Below are positions 59,338-63,363 of a DNA stretch of 64,000 nt, one piece after another. Position numbers and translations under genes: made by a program. The stretch lies in NCBI GenBank assembly GCA_021794205.1, contig JAJYRH010000001.1, positions 62,001 to 126,000 on the forward strand, in the 5' to 3' direction. The notes under the pieces are model-generated. The model was not told the origin of the DNA. It searched no databases and saw only the letters and a list, made by a program, of their open reading frames with translations. Every line of letters begins with the position of its first letter. The first letter of the stretch is position 1. This DNA comes from a bacterium. GTDB taxonomy: Bacteria; Vulcanimicrobiota; Vulcanimicrobiia; Vulcanimicrobiales; Vulcanimicrobiaceae.

Positions 59338-60033
59338 ATGAACAATTTCTCGAAGCTGCTTGCAGGCGCCGTTTTGACGTTCTCTGCATCGGCATTTTCG
59401 CTGCCCGCCGTCGCACAGAGCGTGCAATCGCCATATGTCGATTCGGCTTGCGGAGCTTGGCAGGGGAATACGTGGGTTCCCAACGGGCGCTGCAGCGATG
59501 CAGACCGAACCTTTAAGCATCAATACGTTGCCGGAACGATCGTCTCGGTAACGGGGCATCTCGTAACGGTGCAGCGCAGTAAGGGGCGGCTCGTCATCGA
59601 CGATCAACTCGCACTCAATCGCCAGATGACCGGAAAAGTCGCCGTCGGCCGGAGAATCCTGGCGCACGGCTACTGGCGTAATAAAGTGTTCTACGCCACG
59701 ATGATCCAGCCGAATACCGCCACCGGTAAGGCATCGGCGGTTATGGCGACGCCCTACGTGGACTCGCGGTGCGGAACCTGGCGTGGGAATGCATGGCATT
59801 CGAACGGCACGTGTACGAGAACCGTCGATATGTATAGGCATCAGTACGTTGCTGGAACCATCACCGGCGTGACCGGCCACCTCGTTACCATTCAACGGAG
59901 CAAGGGTACGCTCGTTATCGACGACCAACTTGCGTTAAATCGAAAAATGACCGGGACGGTTGCCGTCGGGCGCCGGATTCTCGCTCACGGTTACTGGCGC
60001 AACAAAGTGTTTTACGCCACGCTGATCCAGTAA
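59338..60033 (+). CDS. Secreted protein with two tandem copies of one domain
   Basis: This encodes 231 residues with a signal peptide cleaved after AVAQ (about 27). Residues 31-124 and 138-231 are copies of the same ~94-residue unit: PYVDS-CG-W-GN-W--NG-C, then HQYVAGTI--VTGHLVT-QRSKG-LVIDDQLALNR-MTG-VAVGRRILAHGYWRNKVFYAT-IQ, with the last 18 residues of the core identical. The second half of each unit looks like a DUF5666-type small beta-barrel. Two Cys per unit could form disulfides. Function unknown. Confidence 0.75.
   Translation: MNNFSKLLAGAVLTFSASAFSLPAVAQSVQSPYVDSACGAWQGNTWVPNGRCSDADRTFKHQYVAGTIVSVTGHLVTVQRSKGRLVIDDQLALNRQMTGKVAVGRRILAHGYWRNKVFYATMIQPNTATGKASAVMATPYVDSRCGTWRGNAWHSNGTCTRTVDMYRHQYVAGTITGVTGHLVTIQRSKGTLVIDDQLALNRKMTGTVAVGRRILAHGYWRNKVFYATLIQ
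59428..60030 (+). repeat. In-frame tandem duplication inside 59338-60033
   Basis: Unit 1 is 59428-59709 and unit 2 is 59749-60030 (94 codons each), joined by a 13-codon spacer. The protein copies are far more alike than third codon positions, which differ often (for example in the GRRILAHGYW stretch), so the duplication is not very recent and the amino-acid sequence is kept by selection. Confidence 0.8.
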
Positions 60034-60345: not shown

Positions 60346-60576
60346 TTACGAGCGCCGAATACGCACGCGCCAGAGCTCGGGGCCGCTCTCGAGGTACTCG
60401 AATGCGAACGCTCCCGGGTGATCGTGCTCGAGCTCGAAACGCAGCGGGCGAGGATCGTGGTCGTTGAGTAGGGTGAGGGCGTCACCGGAGGCTAACGTCT
60501 CGAGGCGCGCGTGGATGGTGGGGTGCTTGCGTGCCGGAGGAATCGTACGAATATCGAGTTCGGCGGTATCGTTCAT
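60346..60576 (-). CDS. DUF2249 protein, last gene of the selenoprotein operon
   Basis: This encodes 76 residues: LDIRTIPPARKHPTIHARLETLASGDALTLLNDHDPRPLRFELEHDHPGAFAFEYLESGPELWRVRIRR (abridged; key pieces LDIR.IPP..R...I, LLNDHDPRPL, W.V.I.R). This is the DUF2249 fold related to TusA/SirA-like small alpha/beta proteins, often beside hemerythrins and nitric-oxide genes. It starts 15 bp after the selenoprotein stop. It is one of three DUF2249 genes in the operon. Confidence 0.85.
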   Translation of the reverse strand: MNDTAELDIRTIPPARKHPTIHARLETLASGDALTLLNDHDPRPLRFELEHDHPGAFAFEYLESGPELWRVRIRRS

Positions 60577-60591
60577 GGATGCATCTTCCTT

Positions 60592-61392
60592 TTACGCGCT
60601 TGGCGTCGGTGATGGTGTGGAAAGGTTCTCGCGATGAGAGGGCGCTGCCAGGTGCAGCGGGGGCGCTCGCCGCTCGGCCGTTCGTAAAAGGTCGATCGCG
60701 CGAGCGACGATCTCACGGTGTCGTGGTTCGTCTCCGGGTTCGCCGATCGGCGCATCGCCGTGCGGGGTGACGAGCGAGCGAGGAGCGGTTTCGAGCAATC
60801 GCGGCATCGTACCGATGACGACCGTCGAAAAATCGTGCGTTTCGAGAATGTTGGCGACCAGACCGGCCGTCTTGTGGCACATCGGTCATATCGGAACGAT
60901 GAGCGCCGCATTCGCACCGTCGGCGCGCAGACGAGCGAGCATTTGCGGTATCGTCGATTCGATGAAGGTCGGCCAGTCGAGAAGATAGCCGCTCCAACTC
61001 ACGACGTGTTGGGTGAGCGTGAGGCCGAGCGTGCGAGCGGCGTTGCGAGGGAGCACGCACTCCAGGTCGCGACGCGCGAAGCCTCGGTCGTAATGCTCGT
61101 GTGCGAAGTCGATATGTTCGGCGGGCAGGTCGATATCGAAGGCGCGATAGCTCGCGTCGCCGATTATCGAGCCGGATGCGAACGGGGCTTGCGTTTTTGT
61201 ATCGTACGCCCCCGACGAACTAATCAGCGCGACGCGAAGATCGCCCTTCGGCCGAGCGAACGCGCGGCGATCGATCTCCGGGAGTGGGAAGGCGGGCATC
61301 ACCGCCGGAAAATCCGGAGGATCGTTCGCGAGCGCTCGAAGCGCGGAGGGTAGCCACTCCGCCCAGCGCTCGCGGTATTCGTTGCGGATCAT
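60592..61392 (-). CDS. GrdB-like selenoprotein (in-frame UGA)
   Basis: The gene is open for 168 codons, reaches TGA at 60886-60888, and continues in the same frame for 96 codons with unbroken family similarity, giving 266 residues with selenocysteine at 169. The junction reads ALIVPI-U-PMCHKTAGLV, the U-x-x-C redox motif of the glycine/sarcosine/betaine/proline reductase selenoprotein B family, where aerobic homologues often have Cys at the first position. A SECIS-like hairpin follows. The N-terminal half (ALISSSGAYD, GDASYRAFDIDLP, HEHYDRGFARRDLECVLP) fits the same family. It is too short for a full glycine reductase and no GrdA/GrdC is here, so another thiol-redox role is likely. Confidence 0.88.
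60853..60888 (-). promoter_or_regulatory. SECIS-like selenocysteine insertion element
   Basis: Starting 14 bases after the UGA (60886-60888), GACGGCC (60871-60865) and GGTCGCC (60859-60853) form a 7-bp stem (one A-C mismatch, one G-U) with the 5-base loop GGTCT. The E. coli fdhF SECIS also has a GGUCU apical loop about 18 bases after its UGA. This is the site SelB binds to insert selenocysteine. Confidence 0.75.
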
Positions 61393-61399
61393 CGGTCGT

Positions 61400-61705
61400 T
61401 CATCTCCCTAAGAGAAAGCGCGCTTGTGGCTTGAGGCGTTCCGGCGTCCATTCCGGTGAGAACGTGACGGTGACGTGGAGATCGGTGACCTCCGGAAGCG
61501 CGCGGATCGTGCACTCGACGTCGGCGACGATCGTCTCGTGCATCGGACAACCCGGGGTAGTCATCGTCATCAGAATCGTCACCGCGCCTTTGTGGTCGGC
61601 TTCGATTTCATAAATGAGCCCCAATGAAACGATGTCGATCCCGAGTTCGGGGTCGTTGACGGTGGCGAGCGCCGACTCGACGCTTCGCCGAAGCTCTTCA
61701 TTCAT
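61400..61705 (-). CDS. MIP18/DUF59 family Fe-S assembly-type protein
   Basis: This encodes 101 residues, a single DUF59 domain: VESALATVNDPELGIDIVSLGLIYEIE, then MTMTTPGCPMHETIVADVE with the family Cys in TPGCPM, and VTDLHVTVTFSPEWTPERL. SufT, PaaD and eukaryotic MIP18 belong here; they act in Fe-S protein maturation. It starts with an ATGA overlap with the DUF2249 gene at 61702 and ends 7 bp before the selenoprotein gene. Confidence 0.92.
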   Translation of the reverse strand: MNEELRRSVESALATVNDPELGIDIVSLGLIYEIEADHKGAVTILMTMTTPGCPMHETIVADVECTIRALPEVTDLHVTVTFSPEWTPERLKPQARFLLGR

Positions 61706-61932
61706 TCTCGGTACACTTTCAGCAGATAGCCTCCGCCGATCTCGGGATCGCAGCTGTAGGCAAAGCCGCGATCGTGGAGTTCGGCGAAGAGAAAGATCGG
61801 TTCGCGGTCCATATTTGCGACGAGTATCGTGTCGCGGTCGAAATCCTCGATCGTTTCGAGGATGCGCATCATCGGTTCGGGTGGAGCGAGGCCGCGGTTG
61901 TCGAGACGGACGATGCGTTTCTGGTTATCCAC
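61702..61932 (-). CDS. DUF2249 protein (second copy)
   Basis: This encodes 76 residues from a GTG that overlaps the end of the membrane-protein gene by 8 bp. VRLDNRGLAPPEPMMRILETIEDF then REPIFLFAELHDRGFAYSCDPE; the pattern LDNRGL.PPEPM is typical of DUF2249. The Cys in YSCDPE is not shared by the other two copies. The frame opens 38 codons earlier without conserved sequence. Confidence 0.85.
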   Translation of the reverse strand: MDNQKRIVRLDNRGLAPPEPMMRILETIEDFDRDTILVANMDREPIFLFAELHDRGFAYSCDPEIGGGYLLKVYRE

Positions 61933-63133
61933 GCGCGCCCTCCGATGCGAAAAGATAGAGGGCGGCGAGCCGTGCGATCGCAACGACCGCTGCGATGCCT
62001 CCGAGCGCGTAGATATCGTAGCCCACGCGAGCGAACGACGATTCAACGAACGTGCAGGCGGCGGCGATGAGTGCGCCAGCCGTCATCAGCCCTAACGCCG
62101 CGTGGGCGAGCGGGAGATCGACGGCGCTTCCGAGAGCGGGGAGCCGCGCCGCCGGCATGCGCGCCTTCGCGCCCTGCCAGGTGAGAAAACCGACGATTTT
62201 GTACGAGTAGCCGAGAATCGTCATCGATAACCAACCGAGAAGCGCGAGAACGATCGCGGCGGGAAACGCGCGCGGCTCCCACGTTCCGGCGAGCGCCGCT
62301 ACCGCCGCGATCATTCCTAACGCCCACGCGGCCTCGCCGTAGCGAAGACTGATGTCGAGACGCGCGCGCAGCCGCGAGGAGAGCGTTTTGAGGTGAGCGA
62401 TGCCGATCGCGACGCACGCCGCAATTGCGGCGAGAAAACCGATGCGCGCACCGACGGGAAATCCTCCGATCGACGCGGCAGCGACGAGGATGCCGAGCGC
62501 GACGAGCCATGCCGCCCCCCACGATCCATACGCGTTGGCGTGCGCGACCGCGAACATTGGAACGAAACGATAGGAGATGGTCACGATGAGGATGCTCGCG
62601 AATCCGCCGATGGCGAGCAGCGCGTGCACCGGGGCGAGCGCCGAGAGCGGCAGCGCCCAGAGATCGCCGAGTTCGCCGGCCATCGCCGCGCCGATGCCCG
62701 CCGCCGCGAGAAAGGCCGCGAGCGCGAAAAAGACCAAGGCGCGCGTGCGCCGCTCGTCGCGTCCGCGAAAGAGACGAAGCATCGTCCATCCCACCCAGAG
62801 CGTCGCGCTACAACCGAGAACGATTGCCGCGGCGCCAAAGCTCGGCAGTCCGTAAAAACCGGCGACGAGCAGCATAAAACCGACGGCGAATGCGGAGGCG
62901 ATAGCGAGAACGATTCCCGCCCGCGCGTTCGGCGCGTGCGTGAGGACGGGGAGCAGCTGGTTCAGGGCCGCGATCGCAGCGATGACGACGAACGCTGCAA
63001 ACGCATGGAGCGCTCCGAGCGTCGGGCCGCCGACCGCCACCAGCACGCAGCCGGAGGCAAAGAATGCGAGCGCGAATGCGAGGGCGACTTCACTGCCGAG
63101 AGGATCGTTGCGCGACGAGGGATCGCCGATCAC
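61925..63133 (-). CDS. 12-helix membrane protein, NnrS / haem-copper oxidase subunit I-like
   Basis: About 402 residues from a GTG overlapping the first DUF2249 stop (GTGA); an ATG at 63160 is an alternative. I count 12 hydrophobic helices. His residues lie in helix 2 (GALHAFAAF), at its end (LPVLTHAPN), in helix 6 ([11 protein letters not shown]), after it ([10 protein letters not shown]) and in helix 11 (LAHAALG), as might bind haem or copper, though the full oxidase ligand set is not seen. Similar proteins occur with DUF2249 and MIP18 genes in denitrifiers. Role in NO or metal-haem handling is inferred, not shown. Confidence 0.7.
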
Positions 63134-63363
63134 GTCGATCGCGTGAAGAGAATCCGCCATTCCTCGGGGGCGACCTCATCGGCGGTATAGGAGTATCCCA
63201 ATTTTTTCATGACGCCGAAGAGCGGAATCGGCTCGAAAGAGTTCACCAGGAGGAAGGCGTCCTCGGGGCCGAGCGCCTCAACGGCATCCATGATTGCTTG
63301 AAACGGCTCCTCGCCGCGTTCGTGAAAGGGGCGGACATCGAGTTCGATCGTACGGGTTGCCAT
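63130..63363 (-). CDS. DUF2249 protein (first gene of operon)
   Basis: This encodes 77 residues: [27 protein letters not shown], then [33 protein letters not shown]. The NSFEPIPL segment is the DUF2249 hallmark. A TAGAAT -10 hexamer ends six bases before the ATG, so translation probably begins at or next to the 5' end of the mRNA. It is the first of six overlapping or closely spaced genes ending at 60346. Confidence 0.88.

Follow-up and report, generated by a model that had tools for sequence, protein, structure and literature searches.

We report that a gene in an Eremiobacterota MAG almost certainly specifies a true selenoprotein belonging to the PrdB/GrdB-like family, judging from its own sequence and from those of its relatives. 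What is specific to this case is the setting: the selenocysteine (Sec) gene is found within a conserved DUF2249–membrane protein–DUF2249–MIP18–DUF2249 operon, without the usual partner enzyme. The window analyzed here is a stretch of 64,000 nucleotides (assembly GCA_021794205.1, contig JAJYRH010000001.1), and the genome to which it belongs (G000) has a size of 2.2 Mb and is about 90% complete.

An in-frame UGA in a PrdB-like gene

The gene occupies positions 60592–61392 of the minus strand and codes for 266 amino acids when TGA is translated as Sec. The frame, read from 61392 to 60592, has a single interruption, the TGA at 60888–60886, where 60886 is the last base of the codon for Sec169. This codon lies in the sequence ALIVPI-U169-PMCHKTAGLV, which defines a UxxCH motif (U169-P-M-C172-H173), and both the match to the TIGR04483 profile and the alignment with homologues continue through it. 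The frame, its TGA, and the family sequence on both sides are as described in the original prediction, which also foresaw mis-annotation as two broken ORFs; a mechanical annotation would indeed yield pieces of 168 and 96 amino acids. Decoding of the UGA as Sec is strongly supported by these features together with those described below, and codon 169 would be read by SelB and tRNA-Sec under the direction of a hairpin located 3′ of the UGA.

Structure predictions of the Sec protein, based on very shallow alignments, gave pLDDT values of 34 and 41. A sequence search against solved structures returned no convincing relative; the best matches, a designed protein and an acyl-CoA dehydrogenase, covered short stretches only and were discarded.

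Sec machinery of the genome

A search of the same genome for selA, selB, selC, and selD recovered all four genes. The tRNA-Sec gene is located on the same contig as the Sec gene, at a distance of about 10 kb; it scores 68.5 bits, above the gathering cut-off, and ARAGORN also calls it tRNA-SeC. On contig C18, selA is directly followed by selB (L047, 10812–12152 and 12162–14027). SelB and SelD match their curated profiles with 302 and 365 bits, respectively; selB, selC, and selD were identified by such profiles, and selA by its sequence and its position directly before selB. The selD gene (L054, C30:1136–2059) has an in-frame UGA of its own at the usual site (...SSCAGUASKLD...). A gene for a formate-dehydrogenase-like molybdoenzyme on contig C45 (L108, near 94677–95426) also contains an in-frame UGA, within the motif ARIUHSS, and is likely another selenoprotein gene. 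The genome therefore likely encodes at least three selenoproteins.

Across the phylum, 113 of 149 Eremiobacterota genomes contain a gene above the SelB cut-off, so that the use of Sec seems to be widespread in this group. Selenoprotein genes of Eremiobacterota may be mis-annotated, and our literature search found no paper that mentions both Eremiobacterota and selenoproteins.

Conservation of the UGA in relatives

The protein was found in 24 of the 149 genomes. After each locus was re-read, thirteen of these proved to carry a close form (49–94% identity) whose UGA aligns with that of the window gene, and six a distant form (about 29–34% identity), again with UGA. Two genomes (G090 and G091) have Cys at the Sec site, as do plasmid homologues from Roseomonas and Haematobacter (CPVCH and CPICH), and the remaining three contain fragments or decayed or spurious copies. 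The selenoprotein reading had been considered open to refutation by a random codon at this position in related strains; UGA or Cys was found instead, which, together with the complete set of sel genes, supports that reading. In the phylogeny, the close form constitutes one clade of 15 sequences, all with Sec, with a support of 100/100. Three genomes (G029, G030, and G031) have two Sec paralogues each within the close subfamily (L024/L041, L023/L043, and L026/L042, respectively), with the motifs UNMCH and UPLCH.

Between relatives, dN/dS after the UGA ranges from 0.13 to 0.40, values comparable with, or slightly above, those before it. Such low values indicate that the part downstream of the UGA is translated and under purifying selection. 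A nonsense mutation or sequencing error, which would leave a pseudogene of 168 residues and a leftover frame, is extremely improbable: related copies do decay (G062 has an in-frame deletion, G063 a degraded copy, and G068 has lost the gene completely), but many genomes, including some with only about 50% identity, retain the UGA in its column, dN/dS stays well under 1 both before and after it, and synonymous positions are constrained over the hairpin.

A candidate SECIS hairpin

Downstream of the UGA, a SECIS-type hairpin (GACGGCC-GGUCU-GGUCGCC) is present at 60853–60871 of the minus strand; counted from the UGA, its stem starts at 14 nt and its loop at 21 nt. The hairpin, its loop, and its spacing agree with the original prediction, although the full 7-bp stem proposed there does not hold. 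The seven positions of the stem comprise six pairs (one of them G-U) and an A·C mismatch at the second pair, leaving five contiguous pairs; a full seven-pair stem occurs in relatives (G096, G029b, G031b, and G030b). The published model of bacterial SECIS elements calls for a loop of 3–9 nt with G in its first two positions and a spacing of 16–37 nt (PMC13188914); a stem of 4 bp or more is expected as well. The GGUCU loop, the spacing of 21 nt, and the stem all conform to these requirements, and from its sequence the hairpin is predicted to be a usable bacterial SECIS.

The isolated hairpin folds with −6.6 kcal/mol, a value that is unexceptional by itself and narrowly misses the published guideline of −7.5; other members of the close clade reach −7.0 to −11.7 kcal/mol. 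About 17% of synonymous shuffles fold equally well (p about 0.17), and covariation in the stem is too low to be informative as support. Codon usage gives a clearer signal. Among residues with the same amino acid, mean codon identity over codons 173–179 is 0.83 versus 0.49 gene-wide, and codons 173–180 rank highest in the gene. At codons 176, 177, and 179, every shared amino acid is encoded by one and the same codon. The hairpin thus coincides with the strongest synonymous-codon constraint in the whole gene, which indicates that the constraint acts on the RNA. In distant Sec homologues (G089, G083, G082, and G032) another hairpin, GCAC-GGUC-GUGC, is observed 17 nt after the UGA, with a GGU loop. 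An Rfam scan of the region returned nothing relevant.

Relationship to PrdB and GrdB

TIGR04483 (PrdB) is the only strong curated match of the protein (64.5 bits, E 1e-17), covering residues 46–228 and spanning the UGA, and it is matched by all 25 aligned family members. The profile of GrdB (PF07355) is matched by 15 of the 25, and the window protein scores 11.1 bits, below the cut-off of 22. The assignment to the GrdB/PrdB superfamily and the U-x-x-C motif of the original prediction are therefore retained, while its description as GrdB-like is modified, the protein being nearer to PrdB by profile.

That the protein is a true subunit of D-proline reductase, as its best curated profile might imply, is very unlikely. 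Its score is far below the equivalog cut-off of TIGR04483 (300 bits), and a profile search that recovered PrdA and, with weaker scores, GrdE-like proteins from a control plasmid found no PrdA in the genome (about 90% complete). Nor was a prd gene recognized among the neighboring genes. The low score and the missing PrdA lead us to designate the protein PrdB-like rather than PrdB. No pyruvoyl partner of the GrdE type was found in the genome either. The lack of both partners makes reduction of D-proline or glycine improbable, and the protein probably reduces neither.

Comparison with known proteins delimits what is new here. PrdB of Clostridium and Enterococcus can be aligned over residues 46–228 and shares the U/C-x-x-C-H motif and the invariant residues D109, P115, E184, P204, R205, and G217. 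In contrast, the identity to E. gilvus PrdB is 22%, and the window gene has no PrdA or PrdC gene beside it. The Roseomonas and Haematobacter proteins, named ‘glycine/sarcosine/betaine reductase selenoprotein B family protein’, have the same domain with CPxCH at the Sec site, but they contain Cys instead of Sec, show about 25% identity overall, and have other gene neighbors. The closest precedent is the family recorded in the GOS survey as ‘Proline reductase PrdB’ (pfam07355, UxxC), with 235 Sec and 110 Cys sequences (PMC2398784). In marine metagenomes, PrdB-like proteins with Sec belong to the most abundant selenoproteins (PMC2398784). By description, this GOS/Sargasso family has in common with the window protein a Sec-containing UxxC motif, a domain of the GrdB/PrdB type, and the existence of both Sec and Cys forms; it differs from the present case in that the latter belongs to Eremiobacterota and is encoded inside a DUF2249/MIP18 operon. 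Since the kind of protein has already been catalogued, the novelty is restricted to its setting.

A conserved operon with DUF2249 and MIP18 genes

The predicted association of the gene with DUF2249 and MIP18 genes is real, as seen from Pfam matches and from conservation in the genus. All genes of the operon are on the minus strand and either overlap or are separated by no more than 15 nt. It starts with a DUF2249 protein (63130–63363; PF10006, E 3e-18), followed by a 411-residue polytopic membrane protein assigned to no Pfam family (61925–63160; homologues in 21 of the 149 genomes), a second DUF2249 protein (61702–61935; E 1e-11), and a MIP18/SufT-type Fe–S assembly protein (61400–61705; PF01883, E 5e-21). 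The Sec gene comes next, and 15 nt after it a third DUF2249 protein (60346–60576; E 4e-26) completes the order. The membrane protein contains conserved histidines and accompanies DUF2249 and MIP18 in every Eremiobacterota neighborhood that was read. Elsewhere in the window, at 59338–60033, a secreted-looking protein of 231 residues is encoded that consists of two very similar tandem halves and has no clear Pfam family.

The operon is kept in the genus (G064, G065, G066, and G067, and G069 as far as its contig reaches), and only in this genus is the Sec gene inside it. In other genera of the phylum, the membrane protein with adjoining DUF2249 and MIP18 genes forms an operon core without the Sec gene, and the Sec gene, where it occurs outside the genus, lies among other genes. 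The operon core of G082 is followed by genes of COX2/COX1-type oxidases and preceded by a fusion of DUF2249 to a Crp-type regulator. Such a fusion, with a cyclic-nucleotide-binding/Crp-type regulator, adjoins the core at L101:3754–4671, and DUF2249 ORFs of similar length are present in L098, L099, L100, L102, L103, and L104.

Within the genus, three relatives have lost the Sec gene from its slot in three different ways, with the surrounding operon intact. In G062 (L069:1004–1495), an in-frame deletion removes 91 residues (96–186), Sec included; in G063 (L075:2824–3247), a degraded copy occupies the slot; and in G068 (L096:3393–3533), the gene is cleanly absent and its flanks are still recognizable. 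These genomes are draft MAGs, where any single case may be an assembly error. G062 and G068 have a second Sec gene elsewhere, 50–51% identical.

Possible function of the selenoprotein

By analogy with PrdB and GrdB, we infer a redox role for the selenol. Most likely, the U-x-x-C-H motif would form a redox center in which the selenol attacks an electrophilic or oxidized substrate; the Cys three residues further on would resolve the intermediate as a selenenyl-sulfide, which would then be reduced by a cellular thiol system.

It is quite conceivable that the protein is a general thiol/selenol enzyme of antioxidant defense or detoxification, acting on a peroxide or an electrophile and merely co-transcribed with the DUF2249 genes. 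Thiol oxidoreductases commonly carry a UxxC motif, the Sec gene has unrelated neighbors elsewhere (a GST-like gene in G096, L067, is one example), and the operon core exists without the Sec gene. On the other hand, the gene holds a fixed position in six genomes of the genus, with gaps of 8 and 15 nt on its two sides in the window, which suggests purposeful co-expression. We consider such a role unrelated to the operon about as likely as a link to respiration, NO, or Fe–S metabolism.

In Haloferax, the genes of DUF2249 proteins lie next to those for denitrification and are induced together with them; in Thermus, DUF2249 proteins have an effect on nitrate respiration (PMC11218638, PMC6282519). 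The gene neighborhood tentatively points to an accessory role of the selenoprotein in respiration, in nitric-oxide/nitrosative metabolism, or in the upkeep of Fe–S centers. The existence of the core without the Sec gene, and of the Sec gene away from the operon, makes this link an optional one. A more specific and more speculative proposal is that a PrdB-like selenoenzyme without a pyruvoyl partner was recruited to the module of DUF2249, MIP18, and membrane protein for a Se-dependent step in maintenance related to NO or the respiratory chain (Fe–S).

To our knowledge, no reaction has been established for PrdB-like Sec proteins outside amino-acid-fermenting anaerobes. The conserved operon provides a testable lead on the function of PrdB-like selenoproteins, and the recruitment proposed here, if true, would constitute the first role for an orphan member of this family.
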